DNA of 64,000 nucleotides from Collinsella sp. An268 (GTDB lineage: Bacteria > Actinomycetota > Coriobacteriia > Coriobacteriales > Coriobacteriaceae). The stretch covers positions 1-64,000 of the forward strand of contig NZ_NFJH01000008.1 of assembly GCF_002159765.1 (NCBI RefSeq). Direction: 5' to 3'. The number at the start of each line of letters is the position of its first letter. The first letter of the stretch is position 1. This document shows positions 2,562 to 54,635 of the stretch, piece after piece. Under the pieces are notes generated by a model, which saw only the letters and a list, made by a program, of their open reading frames with translations, was not told the origin of the DNA and ran no database searches. The position numbers were made by a program, and so were the translations under genes.

Positions 2562-2973
2562 ATTCAAGATCTCGATCGACGGCACCGCCTATCTCGTGGA
2601 GATGGAGGAGGTCGGCGCCACCGCGACGCCCGCCGACGCCGTCGCCTCGCCCGCTGCCCCGGCCGCACCCGCCCCGGCGCCCGCTCCGGCGGCCCCCGCG
2701 CCCGCGCCTGCACCCGCACCGGCCGCCGCCCCCGCCGCCAGCGCCGGCGTCCCGAGCGGTGCCCACGTGCAGACGGCGCCCATGCCGGGCAAGATCGTCG
2801 ACGTGAAGGTCAACGTGGGCGACACCGTTAAAGTCAACCAGCCCGTCCTCATCCTCGAGGCCATGAAGATGGAGTCCGAGATCGTGGCCGAGCAGGATGG
2901 CGTCGTCGCCTCCATCAATGTGGCCAAGGGCGACATGGTCAACCCCGGCGACACGCTCTTCTCGCTCTCGTAG
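2551..2973 (+). CDS. Biotin carrier subunit of sodium-translocating decarboxylase
   Basis: This protein carries the carboxyl group from the carboxyltransferase (alpha) to the membrane decarboxylase (beta). The 140-residue product starts MLRKFKISIDG, then has an Ala/Pro-rich flexible linker (about 30-65), then a biotinyl domain with EAMKMES whose Lys is the biotin site (about residue 109). An in-frame extension upstream is open but the site GGAGGAG before the ATG at 2551 decides the start. It overlaps the previous gene by 11 bases, which suggests coupled translation. The order and linker match gamma subunits of glutaconyl-CoA, methylmalonyl-CoA and oxaloacetate decarboxylases. Confidence 0.92.
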   Translation: MLRKFKISIDGTAYLVEMEEVGATATPADAVASPAAPAAPAPAPAPAAPAPAPAPAPAAAPAASAGVPSGAHVQTAPMPGKIVDVKVNVGDTVKVNQPVLILEAMKMESEIVAEQDGVVASINVAKGDMVNPGDTLFSLS

Positions 2974-3014
2974 CGCGCTCAGGTTGATCTGTCCCTACGA
3001 AGGAAGGTACTCCC

Positions 3015-4130
3015 TTGGAGATATTGATTGAAGGCGTCGTCTCGCTCGTCGCCGAACCCGGCCGCATCGCCATGATGCTCATCGGCGCCCTGCTCATGTA
3101 CCTCGGCATCAAGAAGCAGTACGAGCCGACGCTCCTCGTGCCCATGGGCCTCGGCACGATTCTCGTGAACATCCCCGGCTCCGGCGTCCTCATGACCGGC
3201 GGTGAGCCCGGTCCGTTCCAGATCCTCTTCGACGCCGGCATCGAGACCGAGCTCTTCCCGCTTCTGCTCTTCATCGGCATCGGCGCGATGATCGACTTCG
3301 GCCCGCTCCTCTCAAACCCGTTCCTGCTGCTCTTTGGCGCCGCCGCGCAGTTTGGCATCTTCTTCGTCATCATCGTGGCGTCTCTTCTCGGCTTCGATAT
3401 CAACGACGCCGCCTCCGCCGGCATCATCGCCGCCGCAGACGGCCCGACCTCGATCTTTGTGGCGAACTCGCTCGGATCGAAGTACATGGGCGCCATCATG
3501 GTCGCCGCGTACTCGTACATGGCGCTCGTGCCCATCATCCAGCCCTTCGCGGTGAAGCTCGTCACCACCAAGAAGGAGCGCCAGATCCGCATGAACTACA
3601 ACCCGCGCTCGGTGTCCAAGACGGCCAAGATCCTCTTCCCCGTCATCATCTGCGTCATCGCGGGCCTCATCGCGCCCGACTCGCTTCCGCTCGTGGGCTT
3701 CCTCATGTTCGGCAACCTGCTGCGCGAGTGCGGCGTGCTCGACAACCTGTCCCAGTCCGCACAGAACGAGCTCGTGAACCTCATCTCCATCCTTCTCGGC
3801 CTCTGCGTCTCGGTCAAGATGGAGTACCACGACTTCCTGCAGCTCGATACCCTCATCATCATGGGGCTCGGCCTGTTGGGCTTCGTGATGGACTCCGTGG
3901 GCGGCGTGCTCTTCGCCAAGGTCTTGAACATCTTCCGCAAGGAGAAGATCAACCCCATGGTCGGCGCCGCCGGCATCTCGGCCTTCCCCATGAGCTCGCG
4001 CGTGATCCAGAAGCTCGCCACCGAGGAGGACCCGCAGAACTTCATCCTCATGCAGGCGGCGGGCGCCAACGTTGCCGGCCAGATCGCCTCGGTGGTCGCC
4101 GGCGGTCTCGTCCTCGGCCTTCTGCTCTAA
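3015..4130 (+). CDS. oadB: Sodium ion-translocating decarboxylase, beta subunit
   Basis: This integral membrane subunit decarboxylates carboxybiotin and exports sodium. The 371-residue product is hydrophobic throughout, with many membrane helices (for example IAMMLIGALLMYLGIK near 17-32) and the family segments AADGPTSIFVA (about 139-149) and the C-terminal SAFPMSSRVIQ. The start is TTG at 3015, ten bases after AGGAAGG. The beta subunits of oxaloacetate, methylmalonyl-CoA and glutaconyl-CoA decarboxylases are too alike to tell apart. The symbol follows the alpha subunit in this operon. Confidence 0.93.
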   Translation: MEILIEGVVSLVAEPGRIAMMLIGALLMYLGIKKQYEPTLLVPMGLGTILVNIPGSGVLMTGGEPGPFQILFDAGIETELFPLLLFIGIGAMIDFGPLLSNPFLLLFGAAAQFGIFFVIIVASLLGFDINDAASAGIIAAADGPTSIFVANSLGSKYMGAIMVAAYSYMALVPIIQPFAVKLVTTKKERQIRMNYNPRSVSKTAKILFPVIICVIAGLIAPDSLPLVGFLMFGNLLRECGVLDNLSQSAQNELVNLISILLGLCVSVKMEYHDFLQLDTLIIMGLGLLGFVMDSVGGVLFAKVLNIFRKEKINPMVGAAGISAFPMSSRVIQKLATEEDPQNFILMQAAGANVAGQIASVVAGGLVLGLLL

Positions 4131-4146
4131 TTAGGAAGTGGTTCAG

Positions 4147-4287
4147 ATGACCTTCAACATGGAGAACCTCGAGATCGCCGTCCAGATCCTCGGCCTCGGC
4201 TGGGGCGGCATCTTCCTCGTCATGCTCATCATATACCTCGTCTCGCTGGCGCTCGGACGCATCTTCCCGCCGAGCGACAGCGAGTAG
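4147..4287 (+). CDS. OadG-like small membrane subunit
   Basis: A 46-residue protein with a single membrane helix (about residues 18-38, GWGGIFLVMLIIYLVSLALG) and a short charged tail. The ATG is preceded by AGGAAG. The position between beta and alpha, 16 bases after beta and 27 before alpha, and the shape of one N-terminal helix match the OadG/gamma-delta anchor subunits that hold the alpha subunit on the membrane. It lacks the long cytoplasmic tail of OadG. That tail may be supplied by the separate gene at 2172-2561. Confidence 0.75.
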   Translation: MTFNMENLEIAVQILGLGWGGIFLVMLIIYLVSLALGRIFPPSDSE

Positions 4288-4314
4288 ACGCCGCCGCTTG
4301 AAAGGGGTGACACG

Positions 4315-5709
4315 ATGACCCGCAAGATTCGCTTTATGGAAACCATCCTGCGTGACGGTCAGCAGAGCCAGATCGCCACGCGCATGCCCATCGAGGACAT
4401 GCTGCCGGTGCTCGGGGACCTCGATGCAGCCGGCTTCTACGCGCTCGAGTGCTGGGGCGGCGCCACGTTTGACGCATGCCTGCGCTACCTCAACGAGGAC
4501 CCGTGGGAGCGCCTGCGCACCATCCGCGAGCACGTCAAGAACACGAAGCTTCAGATGCTGCTGCGCGGCCAGAACCTCTTGGGCTACCACAACTACCCCG
4601 ATGACGTCGTGGCCGCCTTCGTCAAGAAGTCGGTGGAGAACGGCATCGACGTGCTGCGCATCTTCGACGCGCTGAACGACACGCGCAACCTCAAGACCTC
4701 GATTCGAGCCGCCAAGGAGGCGGGCGGCGAGGTGCAGGCGGCCATCTCGTACACGACGAGCGACGTGCACACCGTGCGCTACTTCACCCAGCTCGCCATC
4801 GAGATGGAGCGCGCCGGCGCCGACTCCATCTGCATCAAGGACATGGCCGGCGTCCTCACGCCCGATGTCGCCACCGAGCTGGTGACCGAGATCAAGGGCT
4901 CGGTCGACATTCCCCTGCAGATCCATACGCACGGTACCGCCGGCATCGCCCAGATGACGCTGCTCAAGGCGGTCGAGGCCGGGGCGGACATCATCGACAC
5001 GTGCCTCTCCCCCTTTGCCGAGGGAACGAGCCAGCCCGCAACCGAGTCGATGGCCATCGCCCTCGATGCGCTGGGCTACAAGACCGACCTCGATATCGAG
5101 ACGCTCGAGAAGGTCGCGGAGCACTTCGTGCCCGTGCGCGACCGCTTCCTCGCCGACGGCATCCTGAATCCCAAGGTGCTGTCCGTCGAGCCCAAGGCGC
5201 TTCTGTACAAGGTGCCGGGCGGCATGCTCTCGAACCTCATCAACCAGCTGCACGACCTGGGCCTCGACGATAAGTACGACGAGGTGCTGGCCGAGGTGCC
5301 GCGCGTGCGCGCTGAACTCGGCTACCCGCCGCTCGTGACGCCGCTGTCGCAGATGGTGGGCACCCAGGCCCTCATGAACGTCGTCACCGGCGAGCGCTAC
5401 AAGGTGGTCTCGAACGAGATCCGCGAGTACGTGCGCGGCATGTACGGCCGCTCGCCCGTGAAGATCAGCCGCGAGATCCGCGAGATGATCATCGGGGAGG
5501 AACAGCCCATCACCTGCCGCCCCGCCGACCTCATCCTGCCCGAGATGGGCAGGCTGCGCAAGGAGATTGCCTGCTACGCCCGCTCTGAGGAGGACGTGCT
5601 CAGCTACGCGCTCTTTCCCGAGCAGGCGCGCGACTTCTTGGGCCGCCGCGAGGACCCGTTCTACGACGTGCCCGTGCAGGAGGTCTCGGTCTCCATCGAC
5701 GTCGTATAA
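4315..5709 (+). CDS. oadA: Oxaloacetate decarboxylase alpha subunit (carboxyltransferase, no biotin domain)
   Basis: The carboxyltransferase moves the carboxyl group of oxaloacetate to biotin and leaves pyruvate. The 464-residue product opens with METILRDGQQSQIATRM (about 8-24, the metal and substrate motif RDG.QS..ATR). It has the Lys motif SICIKDMAGVLTP (about 174-186), the metal-binding HTHGTAG (about 206-212), and the PYC/OADA segment VPGGMLSNL (about 302-310). It stops before any biotinyl domain, which is encoded separately at 2551-2973. Pyruvate carboxylase subunit B belongs to the same family, but the membrane subunits next door favour the decarboxylase. GAAAGGGG precedes the ATG. Confidence 0.9.
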   Translation: MTRKIRFMETILRDGQQSQIATRMPIEDMLPVLGDLDAAGFYALECWGGATFDACLRYLNEDPWERLRTIREHVKNTKLQMLLRGQNLLGYHNYPDDVVAAFVKKSVENGIDVLRIFDALNDTRNLKTSIRAAKEAGGEVQAAISYTTSDVHTVRYFTQLAIEMERAGADSICIKDMAGVLTPDVATELVTEIKGSVDIPLQIHTHGTAGIAQMTLLKAVEAGADIIDTCLSPFAEGTSQPATESMAIALDALGYKTDLDIETLEKVAEHFVPVRDRFLADGILNPKVLSVEPKALLYKVPGGMLSNLINQLHDLGLDDKYDEVLAEVPRVRAELGYPPLVTPLSQMVGTQALMNVVTGERYKVVSNEIREYVRGMYGRSPVKISREIREMIIGEEQPITCRPADLILPEMGRLRKEIACYARSEEDVLSYALFPEQARDFLGRREDPFYDVPVQEVSVSIDVV

Positions 5710-5774
5710 GGTGCGCGGCGAGCTGCCCGTGTTTAGAGCGGCCCCGCCCATTCCCTTATGTGAGGCTTTGTCTG

Positions 5775-5800
5775 AAGAGCGCCCCTTTGAGGGCGCTCTT
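5775..5800 (+). terminator. Terminator of the decarboxylase operon
   Basis: AAGAGCGCCC and GGGCGCTCTT form a 10-bp stem with a 6-base loop, followed by TTGTTG. It lies 66 bases after the oadA stop codon and marks the end of the five-gene transcript. Confidence 0.85.
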
Positions 5801-5903
5801 TTGTTGAGGAGCCAAACTGGCGTCGAACGTTTATCCCGGCCCCACCTCCCCGCGCGCCGGGATAAACCGGCAGATCGCGTACCCCTGAACAATCGGGAAT
5901 GAT

Positions 5904-6194
5904 GCGACGGATTGTATGCCCGCGCTGAAAAGGGGATGATGCGGTGGACTGAATGTCCGCGCGGAAAAGGGAGAGAAGCGGCGGATTGTATGAAATCTGG
6001 GGTAAAGACGGGGCGGATTGTATCTTTCCATACAATCCGCCCGTTCTTTGCACCCCTCTGAGCTGGGCTTTTGCCGTCGCAGAAACGGAACATACAATCT
6101 GCCTATACAATCTGCCGGCTTTCTCCCCATGGGGTCCCGAGCATACAATCTGCCGGTTTTATCCCCGCGGGGTCCCGAGCAAGCAACCCGTCCG
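5904..6194. repeat. Two opposed arrays of a degenerate ~37-bp repeat
   Basis: Four plus-strand units carry GCGGCGGATTGTATG-like cores starting at 5904, 5941, 5978 and 6009. Five inverse units (CATACAATCTGCC-like) start at 6030, 6091, 6104, 6142 and 6180. Spacing within blocks is mostly 37-38 bases, with similar filler between cores (CGCGC..GAAAAGGG on one side, ATCCCC..GGGGTCCCGAG on the other). The two blocks meet in a perfect hairpin, GGGCGGATTGTAT at 6011-6023 and its complement at 6030-6042. The whole 5710-6292 interval has no credible gene. The spacing is too short and uneven for a CRISPR array. Confidence 0.8.
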
Positions 6195-6292
6195 CATAAT
6201 CCCCCGCATCGCGGGACCAACCGTAGTGGATGCGGACGGAAGAGATGCCGGTGAGCGGTTGGCCACGCCTCGCGGCGCGACCGCCGACCTCG

Positions 6293-38655: not shown

Positions 38656-39639
38656 TTAGTCTAGCAGACCGAGCGATGAGGTCAAGCGCTTTAGGAAAAG
38701 AAGCGCCGCCATGCTCGGGTTCTCGGGCGGTAACCCACATGCGTCGACTTCTGCAAACAGCTCCATGAGCGTGGCCTTGCGATCTGAACGGACCTCTCCC
38801 TTGGGAACGATCTGCGAGAAGAGATACAGCAGGCTGCATATCTGGACCATCCGGCGACTGCGGAACCACTTCGATCGCAGACGCTTAGGGATTCCAAGCG
38901 CGTTCATGGCGTTCACAAGAACAGCGGGCGAGCGCTTTGAGGGCGAGGGACTTGCGACATCGTTGAGAATGCATGCTCCATGTGCCCCAGCGTTGCGAAT
39001 TTGCCTCGAGTTCTTGAGCTGATAGTGGACGTCCCTCAGGTCTTTGTCGCCCCACCTGGCCGCGCAGAACCTCACGAGATCGGCGAAGATGCCGAACGGC
39101 ACCACCTCGCAGAACGCCCAAATTGGCATGTCGCCCAAGTACTTTCTCACAACGCCACCGGCGTAATGGTCGTTTCTCCTCTTCTTGAGCTCCCCCTCAA
39201 TGCGGGAGCGGTCGTTTTTGGGAAGGCTCGCGTGGTACGCGCGCATGATGGCGTAACCGTCCTCGCCGTGGTCCTCGGCAGCCGAGAGTAGGCGGACCTT
39301 TGCGAAGTGCTCGATGTCAAGAGTCATGGCGAGCAGGATGTCACGCAGCTGACGATCGAGATTCGACAGCGTCTTGAGATGACCGAAGTCGAGTTTCACG
39401 TACCTCCCGTCATGCGGGCCGCCGACGTATTTGGGAAAGAGCTTGCGGTAGGAGTAGACACGGAAGAACTGGCACTTGGTACGCAGATGAGCAACGGCAT
39501 CTTCCTCAGAGACGAGATCGAAGGTGATGCCCTTTGACTTCATGTGGGCTATTTGCTGCTCAACGGTAAGCATGGGCTTAGAATGACCCCCGGATGAGGA
39601 GGCGCCTTCTTCATCGCCAACGTTGCATACATCAGTCAT
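38656..39639 (-). CDS. Abi family (AbiD/AbiF-type) HEPN protein
   Basis: Predicted abortive-infection protein of 327 residues. It begins near MLTVEQQIAHMKSKGITF and has the Abi_2 blocks FFRVYSYRKLFPKY (about 58-71) and DRQLRDILLAMTLDIEHFAK (about 95-114). The HEPN ribonuclease motif R-N-x-x-x-H is present as SRQIRNAGAHG with Arg215, Asn216 and His220. AbiD/AbiF homologues stop phage growth, and HEPN proteins usually cut RNA. The start at 39639 follows GGTGG. It is 10 bases downstream of an XRE gene, so the regulator and effector may be one operon. Confidence 0.85.
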   Translation of the reverse strand: MTDVCNVGDEEGASSSGGHSKPMLTVEQQIAHMKSKGITFDLVSEEDAVAHLRTKCQFFRVYSYRKLFPKYVGGPHDGRYVKLDFGHLKTLSNLDRQLRDILLAMTLDIEHFAKVRLLSAAEDHGEDGYAIMRAYHASLPKNDRSRIEGELKKRRNDHYAGGVVRKYLGDMPIWAFCEVVPFGIFADLVRFCAARWGDKDLRDVHYQLKNSRQIRNAGAHGACILNDVASPSPSKRSPAVLVNAMNALGIPKRLRSKWFRSRRMVQICSLLYLFSQIVPKGEVRSDRKATLMELFAEVDACGLPPENPSMAALLFLKRLTSSLGLLD

Positions 39640-39649
39640 TTGTGACCAC

Positions 39650-40042
39650 CTACCGTTGGACGCACTTCTGCGAACGTATCGCATGCTCGCTCAGCTCCAC
39701 GTAGGAGAGGTAGCTGTCCACGAGGGCGCGGCCCTCGGGGCTGAGGGCGTCGTAGCGTGGCTGGATTCCCTCGGGCTCGGGCGCGTCGATGTCCTCGCGG
39801 CCGATGACGAGGTCGATGGAGCAGCCCAGCTTGTCCGCGATCTGCCAGGCGGCGGGCAGCGGGATGCCGCAGTCGGCGCCGTCGCCGGCGCGCTCGTAGC
39901 GCGCGTAGGTTGAGCCGGGGATGCCGAGCGCCTCGGCGAACTCCTTCGCGGAGCGGTAGCCCGCCTCGCGGCGGAGCCTCTGGAGTGTTCTTTTGCCGCT
40001 GATGGCCTTGTAGGGGGTTTGGGAGGTTGCAGTCAGTGACAT
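39650..40042 (-). CDS. XRE-type HTH regulator
   Basis: A 130-residue DNA-binding protein. The helix-turn-helix is RTLQRLRREAGYRSAKEFAE (about 18-37) followed by ALGIPGSTYARYE (about 38-50). The C-terminal part (RYDALSPEGRALVDSYLSYV) is shared with the larger paralogue at 40135-40821. It lies just upstream of the Abi gene and likely controls it, which is inference. GTGACAAG-type spacing gives a weak ribosome site. Confidence 0.85.
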   Translation of the reverse strand: MSLTATSQTPYKAISGKRTLQRLRREAGYRSAKEFAEALGIPGSTYARYERAGDGADCGIPLPAAWQIADKLGCSIDLVIGREDIDAPEPEGIQPRYDALSPEGRALVDSYLSYVELSEHAIRSQKCVQR

Positions 40043-42414: not shown

Positions 42415-42808
42415 CCATTGAGGGAAAGCGAGCACGGCCCCCTTACGACAAAACATGAGAATCCCTGTGAGAGGGTTTGTCAACTTTCGTAAGTGTGATG
42501 AGTGTGTCGGGGCGTCCGAAGCCGACAGGGGAGATGGTAAACAAGGCCGCCGTGCTCAAAGCGTACGGTTACTCCAACGACGGCATCGTTTGAGCACAAG
42601 TATCCACGAATTGACATCTTACAGCTGGACCGTCAGCTTCAATAACAAGCAACGGCACGCTAAGCAAGGACCTAAAGCCAGCGAGCGCATGAAGGGATGT
42701 TCTCCCCGCCCTGCGTGAACCGACTTTTCAACATGTCTGGTCCCTGTGGGATAATGGTTGCATTGTGTTGTTAACCGTCACGGCTTGTGCCGGATTGGAT
42801 GTGCGTCA
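42415..42808. other. Intergenic region with possible gene debris
   Basis: A 31-codon frame at 42498-42593 (MSVSGRPKPTGEMVNKAAVL, then KAYGYSNDGIV) and a following stretch reading KYPRIDILQLDRQLQ in another frame look like decayed coding sequence. Neither is long enough to name. AT content is intermediate. No promoter for the mod gene was identified with confidence. Confidence 0.35.
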
Positions 42809-44557
42809 ATGCCGACTCTCAACTGGATGGGCAAGGAGAAGGTGGTCAACCACCACCGTGACGTCCCGTATCGCGTGCTCGAGCGCGTACCCGAGAAGGG
42901 CGTGCTCGACAGCCACGGCTCGGACTGCGGGAACATGGTCATCCACGGCGACAACCTCGAGGCGCTCAAGGCGCTGCTGCCGGAGTACGAGGGCAAGGTT
43001 GACTGCATCTACATCGATCCGCCGTACAACACCGGCAACGAGGGGTGGCGCTACAACGACAACGTCAACGACCCTCGCATCAGGAAATGGCTTGGTGAAG
43101 CCGTGGGCAAGGAGGGCGAGGACTTCAGCCGCCACGACAAGTGGCTGTGCATGATGTACCCGAGGCTTCAGCTGCTGAGGAAGCTGCTCTCCCCGACGGG
43201 CGCCATTTTCATCAGCATTGACGATACGGAGCTCGCGAACCTGAGGCTCGTGTGCGACGAGATCTTCTCTCCCTCGTGTTTCGTCTCCGATGTGTCCTGG
43301 CAGCGAAACTACTCGACCAGAAACGACTCCAAGGGCATCCCAGCCGAGGTCGAGCATATGCTCGTCTACAGCAAGGCGCCCGGCTGGCAGCCCCGCAAGC
43401 TGCCGCGCACGTCGGAGATGGACTCGAAGTACAAGAACCCAGACAACGACGTCATGCCTTGGAGAAGTAGCGACGCATTCGCGCCAGGCGCCGCGACCCA
43501 CCAGGGAATGGTTTATGCGATTCAGCATCCCTTTACCGGCAAGTTGCTATACCCGTACAGCGGGTCCTGCTGGCGGTACCAGCAGGACAAGATGCTCGAC
43601 TACATGAACGGCTGGTGCCCGTATGTCCTCAAGGATCTGGACGACGCAGATCGGAGGGCCGAGGTCTGCGGTCTCGACGCCTCCGAGGTCCGTGAGGGAG
43701 TCAAGGGCATCGTGCTCGCCCAGTCCGTCGAGGAGTCGAAGGCCATGGCCTCCGCAATCCAGAAGACGGGCCCGTGGCCGAGGTTCTTTTTTTCCAGAAA
43801 CGGGAAGGGTGGAATCGCTCGTAAGACCTATATCGACAGTGTAGGAGGGCGACTGCCGACGAACTATTGGCCCTACTCCGAGGTCGGCCACACCGACGAG
43901 GCCAAGAAGGAAATCAAGACAATCTTCGGCGGAAAGGCCCCGTTCGACACGCCGAAGCCTACGCGCCTGATTGAGCGTGTGCTCCAGATTGCTGTGGGCG
44001 ACGACGCCCTCGTGCTCGACTCCTTCGCGGGCTCCGGCACGACGGCGCACGCGGTCTTGAGGCTCAACGCAGTGGACGGCGGCTCCCGCCGTTTCATCCT
44101 CGCCGAGCTTGACGGCTACGCCGACACCGTCACTGCCGAGCGCGTCCGCCGCGTCATCGCGGGCTACGGCGAGGGAGGCAACGCCGTAGAGGGCATCGAC
44201 TCCGGCTTCTCCTACTACGAGCTCGGCCCCGCGCTCTTCCGGGGCGACGGGACGCTGAGTCCGGACGTCACGCGCGCGGACCTCGCCCGCTACGTGTGGG
44301 CGACGGAGACGCGCGCGCCCTACGAGGACCTCGCCGACGAGCACCCTTACCTCCTCGGAGAGCACGCGCAGGCGGTCTACTACCTCGCCTGGGAGCCCGG
44401 CGAGGAGACCGCGCTCACCTACGACCTGCTACGAGGCCTCCCGCGCAAGGGGTCGCCGACCGTGATCTACGCGGACCGCTGCGCCATCGCGCCCGAGCGC
44501 CTTGACGAGATGGGCGTCGTCTTCAAGCGCGTGCCCGACCAGATAGCGAGGATCTAG
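42809..44557 (+). CDS. Type III restriction-modification DNA methyltransferase (Mod)
   Basis: Adenine methyltransferase of 582 residues that sets sequence specificity for both subunits of a type III system. Motif IV is YIDPPYNTGNEGW (about 68-80), and the SAM-binding motif I is VLDSFAGSGTTAHAVL, which comes after it, the beta-class order of Mod proteins. The middle part between them (about 160-370) would be the target recognition domain. A short C-terminal domain follows. The start at 42809 (MPTLNWMGKEK) is preferred; 17 upstream codons are open. res follows after two bases. Confidence 0.92.
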   Translation: MPTLNWMGKEKVVNHHRDVPYRVLERVPEKGVLDSHGSDCGNMVIHGDNLEALKALLPEYEGKVDCIYIDPPYNTGNEGWRYNDNVNDPRIRKWLGEAVGKEGEDFSRHDKWLCMMYPRLQLLRKLLSPTGAIFISIDDTELANLRLVCDEIFSPSCFVSDVSWQRNYSTRNDSKGIPAEVEHMLVYSKAPGWQPRKLPRTSEMDSKYKNPDNDVMPWRSSDAFAPGAATHQGMVYAIQHPFTGKLLYPYSGSCWRYQQDKMLDYMNGWCPYVLKDLDDADRRAEVCGLDASEVREGVKGIVLAQSVEESKAMASAIQKTGPWPRFFFSRNGKGGIARKTYIDSVGGRLPTNYWPYSEVGHTDEAKKEIKTIFGGKAPFDTPKPTRLIERVLQIAVGDDALVLDSFAGSGTTAHAVLRLNAVDGGSRRFILAELDGYADTVTAERVRRVIAGYGEGGNAVEGIDSGFSYYELGPALFRGDGTLSPDVTRADLARYVWATETRAPYEDLADEHPYLLGEHAQAVYYLAWEPGEETALTYDLLRGLPRKGSPTVIYADRCAIAPERLDEMGVVFKRVPDQIARI

Positions 44558-44559
44558 CC

Positions 44560-47199
44560 ATGGAGCTGAAACAGTACCAGAGGGACGTCCTCAGGGAGGT
44601 CGGCCGCTTCGCGAGGACGTACGCGATGACCAGGGACGCGAAAGCCGCTTACGACCGGTTCATGGGCGACATTGGCCTCACGCCCGGGCAGGGCGGCGTC
44701 TCGCGCTACCACGACGACCTGGGCGGCGTGCCCAAGGTCTGCGTCAAGGTGCCGACGGGCGGTGGGAAGACCTTCATCGGCGCCTGCGCCGCCAAGGTGC
44801 TGGCCGAGACGCTGCCCTCGCGCGACGACGTCATCGTGTGGCTCGTGCCGCGCAGGGAGATCCTCGCGCAGACGCTGCGCAACATGCGCAACCCCGAGCA
44901 CTTCCTGCGCATCCAGCTCGACCGCGACTTCGCCGGCCGCGTGGAGGTTCTCGACAAGGAGGACGGGCTGCGCGGGCGCTCGTTCAGCGCCGCGACCGTG
45001 GGCGACCAGCTCACGCTCTTCGTTCTGTCCTACGATTCGTTCAAGAACAAGGACGGCCGGCGCGCCTACGCCGAGAACTCTGCGGTTGCCAACGTGACCG
45101 AGTACCAGCGCGCCGCCGGTACGGCGGTGTCGGTGGAGGGTGCCGACGACACGGCGCTCATCTCGGCGCTCGCCGGCTTCAACCCCATCGTCATCGTGGA
45201 CGAGAGCCATCACGTCGGAAGCAAGCTCTCGCTCGACATGCTCAGAAACCTCAACCCGCGCTTCGTGCTGGAGCTCACGGCGACGCCCGACCCCAAGCAC
45301 GCCAACGTGATCGCGCAGGCGACCGCCCGCCAGCTCAAGACAGAGGAGATGGTCAAGCTCCCCGTGGTGGTCTACCGCCGCCCCGACAAGCGCACCACCG
45401 TCGCCGACGCCGTCATGCTGCAGCGCAGGCTGGAGGCCATCGCGGAGCAGGACGAGCGCCGTACCGGCCGCTATATCCGCCCCATCGTGCTCTTCCAGGC
45501 GGAGCGGCGCGGAACCGACGACGCCGAGACCTACCAGAAGCTCAAGGACAAGCTCGTGGAGGGCGGCATCCCCGAGGAGCAGATCGCCATCCGCACCGGC
45601 GACATGGACGAGCTGCGCGGCGCCGACCTCATGGACCGCGCGTGCCCGATACGCTTCATCATCACCGTGGAGGCGCTCGCCGAGGGCTGGGACTGCCCGT
45701 TCGCCTACGTGCTGGCCACGGTGGCGAACAAGAACTCGCAGGTGAGCGTCGAGCAGATCGTGGGACGCGTGCTGAGGCAGCCTTACGCGGCCCGCGCCGG
45801 CGCCCGCAGCCTGAACATAGCCTATGTGCTCACGGCGTCCTCCGACTTCGACCGGACGCTGCAGCAGGTCGTGGACGGCTTGAACGGCGTGGGCTTCTCG
45901 CGCGAGGACGTCGCCGAGGCGGGCCCCGCGCCCACCTCCGGGCAGCAGGGGCAGCTGGACTTTACGCCCTCGCCCTCCGCCGACGAGGAGGGCGAGGAGC
46001 TCGACCTCGACGGGCTCGACCTGCACTTCCCTGCGGCCGATCCTATGGGGAGCGAGGCTTCCGGCGATGGAGGCGGCCACGGCCCCGCGAGCCCGTTTGT
46101 TGACGACATCATCGAGGAGTCTGAGGCCGTCGAGGAGCAGTTTGAGAACGAGACCGGCCACGGCGGGCTTGACACCCTCGCCGGAGGACTGGGAGGAGGA
46201 GCGAACGTGTACCCCATGCGCGACGAGGCGGCGGATTCCGCCCGGGCGCTCGCCGTCCCCCAGTTCGTCATCCGCGTTGACGGCGGGCTTTTCACCGACG
46301 ACGAGACGTGGAAGCCGCTCGACCGCGAGGACCCGCTTCGCGATTTCAAGCTCTCGAAGTACGGCATCGACCGCGTGACCATCAATCCGGCGACGTTCTC
46401 CGATGCGCGCGAGATCGACCTGACCGAGGACTCTGACGAGTACAAGATCCGATGGATCGAGGAGGACATCCGCAAGAACATGCGGATGCTGTTCAACAAC
46501 ATGTCAGACGAGGGCAAGCGCGAGAGCCTCAAGGCGGCGATCTACAAAGCCATGTCCGGCCAGTTCAAGAACACCTATGGCGAGCAGCAGATCACCCGCT
46601 TCATCAAGCGTGTGGTCGAGGACATGGAGTCACCGGACGTCGAGGCGTGCTACGACAGCATCGGCAACGTGACCCGCGCCATCACTGATGCCGTGCGGAG
46701 CCTGGCCGACGACTTCTGCGAGGACCGCTTCGAGAAGCTGCTCTCGCGGGGCGACGTGAAGATCAGCCCCGAGTACCGCTTTCCTGACAGCTTCACGCAG
46801 ACGAGCCCCCTCACGAGCTATGCGAAGTCGCTCTACGCGGCGGAGGACGGACGCATCGACGGCGCCGAGCGGCAGATGATCGACCTTCTGGCCAACAACC
46901 CGCGCGTTGTCTGGTGGCACCGCGTCGTGGAGCGCCGCGAGGGCGAGTTCAGCATCAACGGGTTCATCACGCACTATCCTGACTTCCTCGCGCTGCGCGA
47001 CGACGGCACCCTCATGGCCATAGAGACGAAGGGCGAGCACTTGAAGGGCGACGACTCCAGGCTCAAGCTGAGCCTGGGTACGCGCTGGGCCGATATGGCC
47101 GGCGGAAAGTTCCGCTACTTCATGGTGTTCGCCAGCGAGGCGCTCGACATGCCGAACTCGTACACACTTGCAGAATTCGGTTCAGAGATATTGGGGTAG
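44560..47199 (+). CDS. Type III restriction endonuclease (Res)
   Basis: Superfamily 2 ATPase and nuclease, 879 residues. Walker A is VPTGGGKTF (64-72), the DEAD-type box is VIVDESHHVG (about 209-218), SAT is replaced by ELTATPDPKH, and the motif VI region is VEQIVGRVLRQPY. An acidic linker (about 460-540) leads to the C-terminal PD-(D/E)XK nuclease, HYPDFLAL (805-812) and AIETKG (820-825). The start follows the mod stop by two bases. Length and order are as expected for an intact type III system. Confidence 0.92.
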   Translation: MELKQYQRDVLREVGRFARTYAMTRDAKAAYDRFMGDIGLTPGQGGVSRYHDDLGGVPKVCVKVPTGGGKTFIGACAAKVLAETLPSRDDVIVWLVPRREILAQTLRNMRNPEHFLRIQLDRDFAGRVEVLDKEDGLRGRSFSAATVGDQLTLFVLSYDSFKNKDGRRAYAENSAVANVTEYQRAAGTAVSVEGADDTALISALAGFNPIVIVDESHHVGSKLSLDMLRNLNPRFVLELTATPDPKHANVIAQATARQLKTEEMVKLPVVVYRRPDKRTTVADAVMLQRRLEAIAEQDERRTGRYIRPIVLFQAERRGTDDAETYQKLKDKLVEGGIPEEQIAIRTGDMDELRGADLMDRACPIRFIITVEALAEGWDCPFAYVLATVANKNSQVSVEQIVGRVLRQPYAARAGARSLNIAYVLTASSDFDRTLQQVVDGLNGVGFSREDVAEAGPAPTSGQQGQLDFTPSPSADEEGEELDLDGLDLHFPAADPMGSEASGDGGGHGPASPFVDDIIEESEAVEEQFENETGHGGLDTLAGGLGGGANVYPMRDEAADSARALAVPQFVIRVDGGLFTDDETWKPLDREDPLRDFKLSKYGIDRVTINPATFSDAREIDLTEDSDEYKIRWIEEDIRKNMRMLFNNMSDEGKRESLKAAIYKAMSGQFKNTYGEQQITRFIKRVVEDMESPDVEACYDSIGNVTRAITDAVRSLADDFCEDRFEKLLSRGDVKISPEYRFPDSFTQTSPLTSYAKSLYAAEDGRIDGAERQMIDLLANNPRVVWWHRVVERREGEFSINGFITHYPDFLALRDDGTLMAIETKGEHLKGDDSRLKLSLGTRWADMAGGKFRYFMVFASEALDMPNSYTLAEFGSEILG

Positions 47200-47203
47200 T
47201 ACG

Positions 47204-48745
47204 TTGTCAGTAACTAATGACAGTATCGACTTTAGAGCACTCAGCCAAGACCAGTGGGAGGACTTGTGCTTCGACACTCTGGTCTTCGAATATCCCGGTC
47301 TGCGCAGAATCGATGGAAGTGGTGGCGATGGCGGTGTCGATGCTTATGTCGGCGAGTTTTCCAGTCCGGACATCATCTTTCAGTTCAAGCATTTCAAGAA
47401 GGGTTTCGGCGCGCCTCAGAAAAAGGAAATCGAGCGCTCGTTCAATACCGCCTCTGGTTCATACGACTTGCCCCACTGGATACTGGTGTGCTCAGAAGAT
47501 CCTACTCCCGCCATGCAAAACTGGCTTGATGAGTTCAAGACGAAGCGAAACGGCACGAAGATCGAGTACATCCTTGGCTCTGAAATGCGAGCGAAGGTCA
47601 TCAATCATCCAAAGGTGAGAAAACAGTATTTCCCGAACATTCAGGATGCTTTGGAAAGTCTAAGCAGCGAGCCGCCACACAATCCTTTGGCTGCAGCGGC
47701 GCGTGACGTCAGAGTCTACAACGATGTCTTGCTCGACGACAGGTTCACAGCGACGGTCACGACTGACGGCGAGACGGAAACCGTCGTCTACTCTCTCAAG
47801 CCATGGGTGAAAGAGCCTGTGCCCGCAGTGAAACTGCGTATCAAAACCCCTCAGGGCGCCCAAGCAGTTGAGGGACTCATTAAAGAGGGCCACTCGTTTG
47901 AGCTGGGAACAGACGACATTGGCCTCACGTCGCTGATCGATCCCTCATTGCATGATGCAGACATTGTTTCGATAAAGGCGTTTTCCCTGCCGCAGACACA
48001 CCCTGCGGCCTTGAGTATTTTCGCAGGAGATGACCCTGCGAAAAGCTACCCGTTGCACATCGAACTTAAGACGGTTCGAGAAGGTTCCGAGGTGCTCGTC
48101 AGGTCAAACGCTGGCCAAAACACGGCACCGATTGCTATTACTATGACATTCCGAAAAGCCGCTCCATTGAAGAACTGCACGGTAAGCATTACCCCCAGAT
48201 TCATGGGAAAGACTGTCCGGCAAGCCGCTCGGGGCGCACGCTTTCTAAGACGGCTCGATGAAACAAAAACGCTTGGAATCGCGGAGGAGAACTCTGACCT
48301 AGAAGATGCCTCTTTCATGGCGCTTGGGGACTTCTCAGACGATTTGCCTTGGCGATATTTCGGGGATCTCTTCGACGCGATTGATGCAACCTGCCGTTTG
48401 TTTTGTATCAACCCCACTGTTACTGAGGAGATTGATAACCCTGATTTTGTTGCATCCATGCTCGAGTTCGGTCGAAAGGTGATGCGTGTCGGCACAGAGA
48501 TCGAAGGCTCTGTTTCCTTTGAGCTGAGCGAAGAGAATGCCGACTTAGAGGAAAAAGCGGCCGCCCACGAGCAGATTTGCGTTGTCGTTGATCAGGTGTG
48601 GAACGGGATGGTTTTCGGAGAAGCTTGTTCTGCTGATGTGAGGATTGCGGCAAAGGGACTTTTGGAGCAGGTTGATTCTGACCAAGGCAATCTCTTCAAA
48701 ATCGTCGGCTCGTATTACTACTACATCCAGGCGGCGTCGAATTAA
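47204..48745 (+). CDS. Mrr-like nuclease-domain protein downstream of type III R-M
   Basis: A 513-residue protein. The N-terminal 130 residues look like an Mrr/PD-(D/E)XK nuclease: WEDLCFDTLVFEYPGL with Glu19, SGGDGGVDAYVG with Asp46, and IIFQFKHFKKG with Gln60-x-Lys62. The remaining ~380 residues are a mixed beta region with no known domain. TTG at 47204, four bases after the res stop, is the likely start; TTG at 47168 inside res is possible. GC is lower than in mod and res. No start ATG is available. It may be a third component of the cassette or an independent defence gene. Confidence 0.75.
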   Translation: MSVTNDSIDFRALSQDQWEDLCFDTLVFEYPGLRRIDGSGGDGGVDAYVGEFSSPDIIFQFKHFKKGFGAPQKKEIERSFNTASGSYDLPHWILVCSEDPTPAMQNWLDEFKTKRNGTKIEYILGSEMRAKVINHPKVRKQYFPNIQDALESLSSEPPHNPLAAAARDVRVYNDVLLDDRFTATVTTDGETETVVYSLKPWVKEPVPAVKLRIKTPQGAQAVEGLIKEGHSFELGTDDIGLTSLIDPSLHDADIVSIKAFSLPQTHPAALSIFAGDDPAKSYPLHIELKTVREGSEVLVRSNAGQNTAPIAITMTFRKAAPLKNCTVSITPRFMGKTVRQAARGARFLRRLDETKTLGIAEENSDLEDASFMALGDFSDDLPWRYFGDLFDAIDATCRLFCINPTVTEEIDNPDFVASMLEFGRKVMRVGTEIEGSVSFELSEENADLEEKAAAHEQICVVVDQVWNGMVFGEACSADVRIAAKGLLEQVDSDQGNLFKIVGSYYYYIQAASN

Positions 48746-49153: not shown

Positions 49154-50593
49154 ATGAAGACCGCCAAGCAGAAATCGGCACGCATGCAGGACATGACCGT
49201 CGGCGACCCCTTAAAGCTCCTCATCGCCTTTGCCATGCCCATGCTCATCGGCAACCTCTTCCAGCAGGTGTACACCATGATCGACACCATGGAGATGGGC
49301 TACTTCGTCGGCGACAACGCCATCTCTGCCGTGGGTGCGGTGTCTGCCCTCTACAACCTACTCATGAGCCTTGTCATCAGCATGAACAACGGCTTTGCCA
49401 TCCCCGTCACCCAGGCGTTTGGCTCGCATAACGAGAAGCGCCTGCGCCGCTCCATCGCCGGTATGCTCATCCTAAACGGCGCGCTTGTGGTGATTGCCAC
49501 AACGCTCTCGGTCGTTTTCCTCACGCCGATGCTCCACTTCATGAACATCCCCGCGGGCATCTTTGAGCAGTCCTTTGCCTACATGCTCATCTTGAGCCTG
49601 GGGCTCTTCACCACGGTGAGTTACAACATGTTCTCGAGCATTCTGCGCGCCGTGGGCAACAGCCGCACGCCGCTCTACGTGCTGGTGGTGTCGAGCCTCG
49701 TGAACATCGCCCTCGACCTCTTCTTTATCATCGTGCTCGGCCTTGGCGTGGTGGGGACGGCGCTCGGCACCGTCCTTGCCCAGGCGCTCTCGGCAGTGCT
49801 TTGTGGCGGCACGCTGCTGCGCAAATACCAGGCGATCCTGCCCGAGCGCGGCGATTGGGGCGCCTCGCAAAAGCTCTGGCCGGAGCTACTAAGCTCGGGC
49901 TTTGCCATGGCGCTCATGCTCTGCGTGGTCAACGTGGGCACGCTCATCTTCCAGCGGGCCAACAACGCGCTCGGCGAGACGCTCATTGCCGCCTACGCCG
50001 CCGCCCGCAAGATCATCGAGGCGTTCATGACGCCCTCGGGCACGCTCGCGGCCGCCGCTTCAACCTTTGTCTCGCAAAACTGGGGTGCGCGTCGCTACGA
50101 CCGCATCCGCCAGGGACTGCGCATCGCCTTGGTACTCGAGGTCGTCTGGGGCCTCATTGCATGCGCGCTCGGCTTTGCCGTGGGCGAGTTCATGGTCCGC
50201 CTCATCACCGGCACGCAGAGTACGGGCATCATCGAGGGCGGCACGCTCGCCATCCACTTCAGCCTGCCGTTCTTTGCCGTGCTGGGCGTTCTTTTGTGCC
50301 TGCGCACCGCCATGCAGTCCATGGGCTACAAGGCGGCGCCCGTGATTTCGAGCTGCGTGGAGCTCGCCATGAAGTTCCTTGCCGCGAGCTTCCTCATCCC
50401 CGTCTGGGGCTACATCGGCACCTGCGCCACCGAGCCGGTGACGTGGGTCCTCATGACGGCTTATCTGGGTGGCGCCTACTTCATCAGGCGAAAGAAGATG
50501 TATCCGGAAGAGGACGAGCTCACGGAGCCGGGGGTCATAAACGAGACGGCACAGCTCGAGAAAACCGCAGCTACGACGGAGTCGCAGGCGTAG
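49154..50593 (+). CDS. MATE family efflux transporter
   Basis: A 479-residue cation-coupled multidrug exporter with twelve membrane helices. It begins with a basic tail (MKTAKQKSARMQDMTVGDPL), then LLIAFAMPMLIGNLFQQVY (helix 1) and TMIDTMEMGYFVGDNAISAVG. The MATE duplication is visible in the second half (FMTPSGTLAAAASTFVSQNW, VALG-like region). The final 30 residues are charged. High GC and codon use are like core genes, unlike the genes on both sides. The substrate is unknown. Confidence 0.93.
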   Translation: MKTAKQKSARMQDMTVGDPLKLLIAFAMPMLIGNLFQQVYTMIDTMEMGYFVGDNAISAVGAVSALYNLLMSLVISMNNGFAIPVTQAFGSHNEKRLRRSIAGMLILNGALVVIATTLSVVFLTPMLHFMNIPAGIFEQSFAYMLILSLGLFTTVSYNMFSSILRAVGNSRTPLYVLVVSSLVNIALDLFFIIVLGLGVVGTALGTVLAQALSAVLCGGTLLRKYQAILPERGDWGASQKLWPELLSSGFAMALMLCVVNVGTLIFQRANNALGETLIAAYAAARKIIEAFMTPSGTLAAAASTFVSQNWGARRYDRIRQGLRIALVLEVVWGLIACALGFAVGEFMVRLITGTQSTGIIEGGTLAIHFSLPFFAVLGVLLCLRTAMQSMGYKAAPVISSCVELAMKFLAASFLIPVWGYIGTCATEPVTWVLMTAYLGGAYFIRRKKMYPEEDELTEPGVINETAQLEKTAATTESQA

Positions 50594-50669
50594 CCTAACG
50601 GTAGGCCAATCACACGCGCTGCTGACGCCCCTCGCCGAAGTAGGAATGGGCTGCGTAACCCTACAACGC

Positions 50670-51224
50670 CTAGGCATCCGGTCGAATCAGGTCATCCAAG
50701 CAGTATTCCCCTCGCGGGATATGGGAAAGGCGTCGATACTCCCTTGCCGCCGCAATGATAGAGGGGGCGTCCCAATATTCCTCAAGATAGTTCGTCCGCT
50801 TAATCTCTTTCATGCCTAACTGTTGGGAGCAGTAGTCACTCGGCTTTGTCTTTGACTTTCTTTTGTGCCAGCGTTCCCACTCTCCCTGTCGAATGATCGC
50901 AAGGACCTCGATTTCGGGATGCGTAAACGCCGTCACCACGGGGAACCTGTCGGCATACAGCCTTCCAAGCTTAAACGCCTCATGTCGCGAGTCGGCAATG
51001 CGCACAAGACATACCGGCCAGTCGAAGTCGAAGTTCAGGAGGTCATTCTGAACGTTCGCCGCCGAAACTCTGCGCACGACATCGACCACCTCGTCCTTAG
51101 GAAAACGCAAGGCGTCCGCATCCAACAGCTTTTGGACTATTACTCTTTCCGCGGAGCCCTCGCAAAGGATGATGGGATGATAATGCCTTTCCACAAGTTG
51201 TGTAAGCATATCGTCGCTACCCAT
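50670..51224 (-). CDS. TOPRIM-like partner of an ABC-type ATPase
   Basis: A 184-residue protein. PIILCEGSAERVIVQKLLDA (about 17-36) resembles the first TOPRIM strand and its Glu, VRIADSRHEAF (about 74-84) could hold the metal Asp residues, and FTHPEIEVLAII (about 100-111) resembles the acidic NP.xE block of RloB/AbiL-type small partners. The ATG overlaps the end of the ATPase gene by 8 bases. ATPase-plus-TOPRIM pairs include AbiL, RloAB, PARIS and Gabija. The residues fit none of these clearly. GC is low for the window. Confidence 0.6.
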   Translation of the reverse strand: MGSDDMLTQLVERHYHPIILCEGSAERVIVQKLLDADALRFPKDEVVDVVRRVSAANVQNDLLNFDFDWPVCLVRIADSRHEAFKLGRLYADRFPVVTAFTHPEIEVLAIIRQGEWERWHKRKSKTKPSDYCSQQLGMKEIKRTNYLEEYWDAPSIIAAAREYRRLSHIPRGEYCLDDLIRPDA

Positions 51225-52398
51225 GGGAGACCACCTGCTCCACATGGCCCCTCAATGCCTTTACATCTACGTAACGAGGCGCTGTGCCCTTGATGTAGTT
51301 TGCTGCGAACACCTCAGATTTTTTGTTCTCGATGCGTTTCACCTTGGTGGAATACTTCACCACAGTCGACAAGCAATTTGTCCCACGCGCAAGGAAGTAC
51401 ACGTTGTCTTTCCGATGCACATGGTCAAGTACTTGCGGGTAATGCGTGGTGAACACTATCGTGGCACCGTTTGGATTGGTGCTTTTGTTCACAAACAAAT
51501 CAAGTACCACTTGCACGAGTTGACGATTCAGGTGGTTTTCAATCTCGTCCACAAGCAAATAGCCACCCGTTGTAAGAGCGCTTAGCGCTCGATACACCAG
51601 GCTAAGCCCTCGCATCGTTCCCGAAGATAGGACCTCCGCCAAACCTTCGGCAGACAAAAGCAATGGCTCTTCGTTTTCAAATTGCAGGATAAATGCGCGT
51701 CCCGAATCTTGCGGCTCGAGATGAGAAATCCTTGCATCAAAAACCTTCAGAATGCGATCGGTTCCCTCTGTTGCCTGTCGCAACGTAAATCCCTCTTCGG
51801 AGAAAACCGGAAGAGAGGGCCTACCACCGCACTCGTAGCTAATCACCGGAGAGGCGATGGACAGGTTGAAGCTCGAAACAATAGTCAGATCGAGAAGCGG
51901 CTTGCTGCGTTGGTATACGAGCTGTGCCACATCCAGTAGCTCATCCCAAGAAGCGAGATGGGATTTCTTAAGCAACGAAGATGGAATGGAGAAGATGAGC
52001 TCCTCGCCAAACGTAAGCTCCCGGTCGTATCCGCCCGGTGTGAACTCTGGCGTAAGAAGCGTGGACTTGACAAGAAAGTACTTCCCCCCTTCCCATACAA
52101 GGCAGCGAAGTGTCGAGGGTCCGTTGAACAGGGTGCACAGCGCTGACAATGACTCTGTCCCGCTAATGGACCGACCGTTCAACACTCTCGCAGCCAAATC
52201 AATGAGGCGCAGCGCGGTCGATTTGCCCGATGCGTTGATGCCTGCAAACGCCAAGATATTGTTGGTATAGATCGGTCGCTCAAGCTCTGTTGCCGACGAA
52301 TCTGACGCGGGAACTCTGTCGGAAGTAAAGAAGTCGAGATCAAAAACTCCGTCTTCGAACATTTTCAAATGGTCGAAATACATTTTGAGAAGTCTCAT
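51217..52398 (-). CDS. ABC-type (AAA_15/21-like) ATPase of a probable defence pair
   Basis: A 393-residue ATPase of the OLD/RloA/PARIS style. Walker A is AGINASGKSTALRLID (about 52-67), the signature is SSGTMRGLSLVYRAL (about 258-272), Walker B is GGYLLVDEIENHLN (about 278-291) and the switch His is FTTHYPQVLDH (about 316-326). Between Walker A and signature is a ~190-residue insertion without coiled coil. TTG at 52407 is an alternative start. It is the first gene of the pair and overlaps its partner, so they are almost certainly co-translated. GC is low compared with the flanking core. Confidence 0.82.
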   Translation of the reverse strand: MRLLKMYFDHLKMFEDGVFDLDFFTSDRVPASDSSATELERPIYTNNILAFAGINASGKSTALRLIDLAARVLNGRSISGTESLSALCTLFNGPSTLRCLVWEGGKYFLVKSTLLTPEFTPGGYDRELTFGEELIFSIPSSLLKKSHLASWDELLDVAQLVYQRSKPLLDLTIVSSFNLSIASPVISYECGGRPSLPVFSEEGFTLRQATEGTDRILKVFDARISHLEPQDSGRAFILQFENEEPLLLSAEGLAEVLSSGTMRGLSLVYRALSALTTGGYLLVDEIENHLNRQLVQVVLDLFVNKSTNPNGATIVFTTHYPQVLDHVHRKDNVYFLARGTNCLSTVVKYSTKVKRIENKKSEVFAANYIKGTAPRYVDVKALRGHVEQVVSHG

Positions 52399-52718
52399 CG
52401 CAACCAACTTTCATTTTCGACCGATATTTTTGTTTAAAGTATAACACCAGATGCGACGTAATGACAATGAGTGACAGGCGAGACGCATCGCCTGAGTAGC
52501 AAGAAGGCGCCTGCTGGAACAGGCGCCTTAACCACACCGCGCCGCCCGTAGCTCCCTCTAGATCACGGGCCCGCTGGCAACATCACTATACCGCGCAGTC
52601 CGCACCGCTAGTCAACCGATGCCTAAAGATTTCGGCAGCGGTGCTCGCCCCACGCTCCACGCCCAGCGGACGTCACGTACAATGACGACAGTGACGCGTC
52701 TTGGGGATGGGAGTCGAG
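52399..52718. other. Divergent region with one strong hairpin
   Basis: No gene is seen in these 320 bases. The side next to the ATPase gene is AT-rich (TTTAAAGTATAACACC), which on the minus strand gives a possible promoter. A hairpin lies at 52504-52529. Confidence 0.45.
52504..52529. terminator. Hairpin between the ATPase and the 52.7-kb gene
   Basis: AAGGCGCCTG and CAGGCGCCTT are perfect 10-base arms around CTGGAA. No T-tract follows on either strand. It lies between divergent genes, so it would be a leader structure or a relic terminator. Confidence 0.5.
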
Positions 52719-54635
52719 ATGATCTTTGCCCAGCAGCCTGCGATTCTTCTGCTCGACACCGTAGACGGGCTCGCCGCATACACCAATGCGGCCCTCGACT
52801 TGCGGCGAGACCACTTCAACCTGCAAGACCCTGTCTACGACCCCAACGAGCTTGCGGACGTCCTCGACGAGCTATGGCAAAACCTCGCCCTTGTGGATGA
52901 CTTCGTTGCAGATAATCCCATGGGCTTCAGCTCCTACGAGCTCAGCCAGGTGCGCCAGTGGAAGAAGGTGTATGTGGGCTACGCTCTCGCCTTCTGCGAC
53001 GATTGCGGGCGATTGCTCTTAAGCGTCAGCGACCGCTTGGTGGAGCCGTGCGGCATCTCGCGCGAGATGGTCGACATGCTCTCCCACCGCCCCACCTTCG
53101 AAGACCCTCTTGGGCTCAGCATCGCCCTCATTCCGTTTGCGGGTCGCATAACCTACCCTGCCGTCTTCTCAGAGCTGCCGATGGGCTGGGGTGACGGCAT
53201 GCGCAAGGCGCTTGCGGAGGAGTTGCGCCATATGGTGGAGACCCAACCGGTCATCTCGGACGCCGCGACCTTTATTGAGGAGGTGCCCCGCATGCACGCC
53301 GAAGAGGCCGAGCACGCCGCGCGCGAGGCGCTAGAGGACCTCGAGTACGAGCTCAACCCGCCCGAGCAGCCCGTCGGCACACACCGCGGCGTCCTCGCGG
53401 GGCTCGACATCAAAGAACGCGAGCGAGCCATCGACATCTATATCGACACGAAACCCTTTGATCTACTCGACGAGGAGGGAGCCGAGCCACAACTCCACAT
53501 CATCACCCTTATGGAGGAGCAGCGCGTTGCAGGCAAGCCCGACCAGCCGCTCGATCGCCTGCTCAGCCGCCTGCACATGGATCAAGTGCGGCATATCGCG
53601 CTGCAACTGCAGGTCCCACACGCACGCGACCTGAAAAAGGCAGAGCTGGTAGAAGCTGCCGTTAAGGCGCTCGCCGATCCCACGCGCGTTCACGAGGCTC
53701 TCTTTGGTCTCAACGAAATGCGGGGCCGGCAACTCAAACGGATTGTGGAGAACGGTTTCTCAATCACGCTTTCTGTAGACGAGCTCATCGACCGCACAAC
53801 GCGGCTTCTCCCCTGCCCGCCGTGGTCCTTTGCGTTCAAAACGGGCAAGAGTTACACCTTTGCTGTGCCCGTCGAGCTGCGCTCGGCGCTTGGATCTGCG
53901 CCCCTCGACGAGATTATCGCCAACGGTGAGACCGAGATGCGCATCTGCCGACTCGCCAACATGTACGCGGAGCTCCGCGGCATCGTTTCTGAGGACGAGC
54001 TTATTGACGAGGTCGCCGCGCAGGACCTTGGAACAGGCTATGCCGAGCTTTTCGCCCGACACGGCAAGCGGCGCGCCGTGGAAGCGCTGCTTAGCGTCAA
54101 CTTTGAAAGCGACCAGCTCGATTCCGATATTCTGGACGACGGCAAGACGCGCTGGCACATCTTCCACACCCTCTCCGACGACGCCGGCACCGCGCCCGAT
54201 GACCCTTGGGCAGCCCCTGCGGTCGTGGAGGCGCCTCTCCCACCCATGCTTCAAAACCTGCTCAAGGCCCGTGAGAGCAAACCGGTGCGCCACCTAGAGC
54301 CCGAGATGGCTGCCTGCAACACGCTCTACGACTGGGAGCTCACGTTGCCGGAGGTGCAGCAACTCATCGGTTTTCTCGACGCCAACGTGCCCGACGATGC
54401 CAATGACTACTTCTACGCCGACAACGTGTACGAGACCCTGGAGGAGATGTCGCGCGGAGGCTATCCGCCGAACGCCGTTTTGCAATACGTGAGCGACGAA
54501 GAGATCATTCCCGACAAAGCGAGCCTGAAGCCCTTCCTCGACATACTCATGAACTTCCTGAACGCAATGCCCAACTGGGCAAACAACGGATGGGCGTCGA
54601 ACGACATCCTGCCGAGCGACGCCCAGATGAGCTAG
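52719..54635 (+). CDS. Large soluble protein of unknown function
   Basis: A 638-residue acidic protein (MIFAQQPAILLLDTVDGLAA start) without membrane segments. The middle part IALQLQVPHARDLKKAELVE (about 300-319) resembles a SAP/Rho-N type helix pair that binds nucleic acid. The C-terminal third contains LPEVQQLIGFLDANVPDDAN and is Asn/Asp rich. No catalytic motif stands out. Two earlier starts (TTG 52701, ATG 52707) are possible; GGGAG favours 52719. It converges with the DUF3825 gene, 29 bases away. Codon use is core-like. Confidence 0.7.
   Translation: MIFAQQPAILLLDTVDGLAAYTNAALDLRRDHFNLQDPVYDPNELADVLDELWQNLALVDDFVADNPMGFSSYELSQVRQWKKVYVGYALAFCDDCGRLLLSVSDRLVEPCGISREMVDMLSHRPTFEDPLGLSIALIPFAGRITYPAVFSELPMGWGDGMRKALAEELRHMVETQPVISDAATFIEEVPRMHAEEAEHAAREALEDLEYELNPPEQPVGTHRGVLAGLDIKERERAIDIYIDTKPFDLLDEEGAEPQLHIITLMEEQRVAGKPDQPLDRLLSRLHMDQVRHIALQLQVPHARDLKKAELVEAAVKALADPTRVHEALFGLNEMRGRQLKRIVENGFSITLSVDELIDRTTRLLPCPPWSFAFKTGKSYTFAVPVELRSALGSAPLDEIIANGETEMRICRLANMYAELRGIVSEDELIDEVAAQDLGTGYAELFARHGKRRAVEALLSVNFESDQLDSDILDDGKTRWHIFHTLSDDAGTAPDDPWAAPAVVEAPLPPMLQNLLKARESKPVRHLEPEMAACNTLYDWELTLPEVQQLIGFLDANVPDDANDYFYADNVYETLEEMSRGGYPPNAVLQYVSDEEIIPDKASLKPFLDILMNFLNAMPNWANNGWASNDILPSDAQMS

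Follow-up and report, generated by a model that had tools for sequence, protein, structure and literature searches.

Two phage-defence systems are the natural points of reference for the locus described here. In PARIS, AriA holds AriB until Ocr releases it, and AriB then cuts tRNA (PMC11455837), while in AbiL the AbiLii protein is a toxic TOPRIM_OLD effector (PMC10440598). OLD-type ABC ATPases linked to a TOPRIM partner are acknowledged as a broad class (PMC12839542), and for Burkholderia OLD a two-metal site has been described that consists of E400, E404, D455, D457, T506 and E508, with K562 (PMC6755086). We analysed a pair of overlapping genes from Collinsella sp. An268, a member of the class Coriobacteriia, within a stretch of 64,000 nucleotides (contig NZ_NFJH01000008.1, positions 1 to 64,000) that we refer to as the window. 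A first-pass annotation of the window had read the pair as an ABC-type ATPase followed by a small TOPRIM-like protein.

Both genes lie on the minus strand. The first encodes an ABC/SMC-type ATPase of 393 aa (51217-52398) and the second a small TOPRIM-like protein of 184 aa (50670-51224), the predicted metal-dependent nuclease effector of the pair. The longest open reading frames are 51217-52407 and 50670-51245, both on the minus strand, and a TTG at 52407 is a possible start for the ATPase; the M1 of MRLLK, encoded by the ATG at 52398, is nearly invariant in homologues. The conserved starts, ATG 52398 and ATG 51224, therefore give proteins of 393 and 184 aa whose genes share 8 bases (51217-51224, minus strand; read directly as ATGGGTAG), exactly the overlap that the first-pass annotation had claimed. 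A Shine-Dalgarno-like run, AGGTGG, stands approximately 6 nt ahead of the small-gene ATG, and the overlap is likely to couple translation of the two genes. The low GC remarked on in the same annotation is also found: 0.53-0.56 for the pair region, compared with about 0.64 or more across most of the window. A consensus scan places a promoter-like TTGTCA-18-TATACT with an extended -10 at 52438-52467 on the minus strand (10 of 12 positions, a consensus match only), about 40-70 bases 5' of the ATPase start. Residue numbers below follow the 184-aa protein; the alignments and the structural model, which begin at residue 2, count each residue one number lower.

The pair is flanked by the gene for a MATE-type transporter (49154-50593) and by a gene for a 644-aa protein (52701-54635), which is also present in three other genomes of the genus (nine searched, the window's own included). 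In one same-genus relative (locus L074, genome G305) the cassette is absent and position 50580 of the window runs straight into 52466, which marks 50581-52465 as the accessory segment that holds the pair and nearly all of the promoter-like site. Two other loci, L072 and L073, have different DNA at the cassette site (385 and about 800 bases). Because the site is empty or replaced in same-genus relatives, we take the pair to be accessory DNA and its site to be variable.

The same part of the window contains an AbiD-family protein (38656-39684, minus strand; PADLOC 7.6e-21) and a type III restriction-modification (R-M) system, with Mod at 42758-44557 (PADLOC 9e-176) and Res at 44560-47199 (PADLOC 7e-75). 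Overlapping Res is a 525-aa protein (47168-48745) with weak LmuA and Mrr-type matches, on the strength of which it may be an added nuclease. Together, the AbiD-family gene, the type III system and the pair give this region the look of a defence island. In L072 other genes occupy the position of the type III system, which makes it a defence hotspot: at 1750-6217 this relative has a PHP-AAA protein (PADLOC Ppl, 3.6e-28), and another protein there is HNH-like in appearance.

Pairing of the two genes is obligate. Two single-protein scans of genome contigs had found nothing because members of the family diverge too much for peptide patterns to detect them, but a whole-genome search succeeded, giving a small-protein match in 25 of 396 Coriobacteriia genomes (two spurious, and one a decayed copy). 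The two spurious matches, in genomes G341 and G208 (E about 1e-4), were dropped because they fall in unrelated ORFs with no ATPase nearby. The true small-gene loci number 25, including two Bifidobacterium megaplasmids, and in 24 of them the ATPase gene lies directly upstream in the same orientation; the exception (L048) is the decayed copy. Searching instead with the ATPase profile, in about 390 Coriobacteriia genomes, yields 22 intact genes, each followed directly by the small gene (22/22). In one further genome the ATPase is split across two contig ends and its partner was not found, and in another both genes are decayed. Measured from the longest ORF start, most homologous pairs overlap by 4 to 29 bases, and a more distant pair on a Ligilactobacillus salivarius plasmid again overlaps by 8 bases. 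The persistence of gene order and overlap, both within the class and outside it, shows that the pair is not a chance arrangement. The two proteins also coevolve: their distances give a mirror-tree r of 0.90, and none of 5000 permutations exceeded 0.32. For the single very close pair that was compared, dN is roughly half of dS in both genes, a weak sign of constraint.

The distribution is patchy. The pair occurs in about 6% of Coriobacteriia genomes, and in a phylum-wide sample the 4 of 396 genomes with a match all belong to the window's own order. It is mobile as well: Bifidobacterium plasmids carry further copies, and more distant ones occur on a Ligilactobacillus plasmid and in IMG/VR phage contigs. 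A pair confined to phages or to plasmids is ruled out, since contigs of sequenced genomes account for the majority of the copies found.

The neighbourhoods of these copies vary, and several homologous pairs stand in ordinary chromosomal surroundings with no other obvious defence gene and no conserved third gene. In L047 (2866-18632) a BREX operon with BrxB, BrxC and BrxL carries one copy between its PglZ and PglX. A BREX study looked in the PglZ-PglX gap for embedded defence systems, and PARIS sits within the Salmonella BREX island (PMC11341690). Through the BREX-embedded copy, the proposal that such pairs protect restriction systems from anti-restriction proteins of phages becomes open to test. 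We also note in L047 a 343-aa protein before BrxL that is AbiH-like by eye and has no PADLOC match. In IMG/VR contigs the pair adjoins an integrase (L058), a tape-measure gene (L059) or the terminase, portal and capsid genes (L061, where at 1750-3444 it stands directly ahead of them), or lies near a DNA polymerase (L063) or an endolysin gene (L057). Its position beside packaging genes in L061 means that phages themselves carry the pair, in which case it perhaps acts against rival phages.

From this context, i.e., the defence island, the BREX-embedded copy, the phage-borne copies and the empty site, we infer a function in phage defence. Specifically, we consider it likely that the pair is a self-contained, two-gene abortive-infection cassette, the ATPase sensing infection and keeping a TOPRIM nuclease under its control. 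The strict pairing, the joint decay of both genes and the carriage on plasmids and phages would also suit a toxin-antitoxin pair that stabilises mobile elements, with the ATPase mainly an antitoxin holding a TOPRIM toxin and the pair persisting by addiction instead of by stopping phages, and toxin-antitoxin network mining has indeed recovered pairs of an AAA ATPase and a TOPRIM_OLD toxin (PMC10440598). However, all ATPase motifs are kept, which simple neutralisation would not need, and one copy sits within a BREX operon, so we consider pure addiction unlikely. The two explanations also overlap, PARIS being both at once.

On sequence grounds, the ATPase is a distant relative of AbiLi/RloA in a clade of its own, apart from the RloB-linked ATPases. 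It matches Pfam AAA_21 (5.7e-15), and the PADLOC search that the first-pass annotation had proposed returns AbiLi (PDLC02335, 5.2e-30, 103 bits) and, more weakly, AriA (PDLC02980, 1.4e-15) for the ATPase, and nothing for the small protein. Both models match in all 24 ATPase homologues. The motifs are a Walker A GINASGKST, a degenerate signature LSSGT, a Walker B YLLVDE and a switch histidine in FTTH; the Walker A, the S/G/T of the signature, the DE of Walker B and the His switch (H-loop) are invariant across the 24 homologues. In a maximum-likelihood tree of 60 ATPases the pair family (28 rows) splits from the RloB-linked sequences (32 rows) with 100/100 support. RloB itself is commoner in Coriobacteriia, where 70 of 392 genomes have a match that exceeds the curated cut-off. 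The genome of the window has a partial RloB match elsewhere (L078, 1501-1869; G000:C12:122882-123250) in a 166-aa frame, spanning family positions 71-195; no AbiLi-like ATPase was found in the flanks examined, and the locus is possibly a decayed AbiL type.

The AlphaFold model of the ATPase (pLDDT 87.8) matches PtuA, Rad50 heads and OLD, with a Foldseek E of 1.7e-10 for PtuA and VIA Z scores of 17 to Rad50 heads and 15-16 to PtuA. The closeness to Rad50 heads by VIA could point to a quite different role, in which an SMC-like ATPase and a TOPRIM partner act on DNA structures in repair or plasmid exclusion, in the manner of Rad50/Mre11 or Wadjet-type systems, and not specifically on phages. TOPRIM partners are found in Wadjet-type systems. 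However, 393 aa is too short for a long coiled coil, and Wadjet-type partner genes were not recognised adjoining the pairs. A housekeeping repair role also fits poorly with presence in so few genomes of the class and with an empty site in a relative. A repair or exclusion function is thus highly improbable, and we retain phage defence as the preferred explanation.

The small protein belongs to no family in the libraries tested. PADLOC, NCBIfam and PHROGs give no match, and the sole Pfam match, to OLD-like_TOPRIM, is sub-threshold at 0.1. When 24 homologues are scanned with E up to 5, PADLOC returns nothing, Pfam gives only scattered matches short of significance, and RloB/AbiLii is matched in neither library, so the poor fit to named families claimed in the first-pass annotation extends to the family as a whole. 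None of the 24 members matches Pfam DUF4435 or PADLOC AriB, and PtuB/HNH, sought in the small protein with Pfam, PADLOC and NCBIfam, gave no match. The family HMM finds no RloB, a PDB sequence search with the family profile returned nothing, and a viral fold library gave no match below E 0.02.

The pattern of conservation is nevertheless of a catalytic type. E22, G23, D78, T101, E104, E106 and K142 are invariant in the 24 homologues, and 23 of them retain E26. Little or no variation occurs in the CEGxxE start and the T-x-P-E-I-E block; of the two conserved motifs that had been proposed, CEG..E and HPEIE, only the histidine of the second does not hold (H in 7/24). The DxD is degenerate: D78 is found in 24/24, but position 80 is D in just 2/24 and in most others R, N, K, P or S. 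Under the residue-by-residue mapping that we infer, the small protein keeps plausible counterparts of all the metal-site residues of Burkholderia OLD except D457. A Ligilactobacillus homologue (WP_095759350.1; L064, 6058-6600) is annotated as 'N-6 DNA methylase' at NCBI. We rejected that name because the protein carries the EG..E and PEIE motifs of the small-protein family, and the label is probably a wrong name carried over by annotation.

The first-pass annotation had also named a predicted structure as a check on the TOPRIM fold. The model of the small protein is confident (pLDDT 93.6) and its elements are E15-20, H23-34, E47-50, H54-62, E70-76 and E95-99. E22 ends strand 1, D78 ends strand 3, T101, E104 and E106 follow strand 4, and K142 lies in a small helical tail, so that in the model both strand order and residue positions fit a TOPRIM core. 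The top Foldseek rows are, weakly, the C-terminal TOPRIM regions of OLD proteins (E 6.6e-3 with prob 0.80, and up to 1.2e-2). VIA gives Z 5.9 over 145 residues, where unrelated folds score 5-6, and its list is topped by 2p62 (PH0156) with Z 7.3, a range in which chance arrangements occur. Profile-profile comparison with hhalign scores 20.6 for OLD against a shuffled top of 14.8, a modest excess, and 19.3 for RloB against a shuffled top of 20.6, which is within the shuffled range. Homology to RloB was also considered from a four-row RloB alignment that gave E 0.0017 with the motifs in register, but the signal was lost with a better RloB alignment. The TOPRIM assignment is therefore probable and stops short of proof, because the Foldseek E is 6.6e-3, the VIA Z is below 8 and the second Asp of the DxD is missing. 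With the ATPase matching AbiLi throughout and the small protein in TOPRIM strand order, the ATPase-plus-TOPRIM plan originally suggested stands, its second half at that strength.

The missing Asp, and a fold match so weak that folds of other functions score alike, would also be expected if the small protein were a catalytically dead TOPRIM or a Rossmann-like adaptor that regulates the ATPase. However, the conservation of E22, D78, E104, E106 and K142 in every homologue, and of E26 in all but one, is what a retained active site would show, which makes an adaptor quite improbable and favours a nuclease.

By analogy with PARIS and AbiL, the ATPase most likely restrains the small nuclease and activates it on infection. 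The ABC/SMC-type ATPase would oligomerise, binding and restraining the small TOPRIM protein; upon sensing a phage product or an anti-restriction protein it would release or activate its partner. The nuclease, its metal ions putatively held by E22, E26, D78 and E104/E106 and with K142 helping catalysis, would then cut nucleic acid, either host tRNA, as in PARIS, or DNA, and this cleavage in the infected cell would stop phage growth. If so, an effector family that the libraries tested do not recognise joins the growing group of ATPase-controlled TOPRIM nucleases. The pair itself travels between actinobacteria, plasmids and phages as a closed unit of two genes. The suggestion that this might be a new branch has gained support, since the small protein has no named family and the ATPase has its own clade. 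For the stronger claim of a distinct unnamed system, with a minimal, 184-aa, single-Asp (DS, not DxD) TOPRIM nuclease, a trigger or substrate specialised relative to AbiL and PARIS, and a range of Coriobacteriia, Bifidobacterium, lactobacilli and phages, we consider the chances about even.

Of the systems to which the pair had been likened at the outset (AbiL, RloAB, PARIS and Gabija), AbiL and PARIS are apt comparisons, while Gabija is less so because both the fusion and the helicase gene are absent. As in OLD and GajA, ATPase and TOPRIM parts occur together, and OLD TOPRIM regions head the Foldseek matches of the small protein, but here the parts are two overlapping ORFs, not a fusion, with a degenerate DxD, and there is no helicase gene beside them as there is in Gabija and class 2 OLD systems. 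The fold of the ATPase is very close to PtuA (Foldseek E 1.7e-10, VIA Z 15-16), as known from Septu (PtuAB) and retron PtuAB, whereas the small protein beside it resembles TOPRIM proteins and matches neither HNH nor PtuB. With PARIS the pair shares an ABC ATPase with a separate, predicted TOPRIM/OLD-type nuclease and occurrence embedded in BREX operons, and its ATPase matches AriA (1.4e-15) more weakly than AbiLi; it differs in an effector of 184 aa that matches neither DUF4435 nor AriB. With AbiL it shares two genes in the order ATPase, then small TOPRIM-type protein, and the match to AbiLi (5e-30), and RloA/RloB pairs of Coriobacteriia also overlap or abut. However, none of the 24 small-protein members matches AbiLii/RloB, whereas an RloB protein matches AbiLii at 3e-26, and the AbiLi score of the ATPase, in its separate 100/100 clade, is 103 bits compared with 317 for a real RloA. 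We therefore set the pair outside both AbiL and PARIS, because the effector that defines each (RloB and DUF4435, respectively) is absent. TOPRIM-linked ATPases already form a broad class, so the pair is not a categorically new system; it is probably a phage-defence system without a name of its own, related to AbiL and PARIS.
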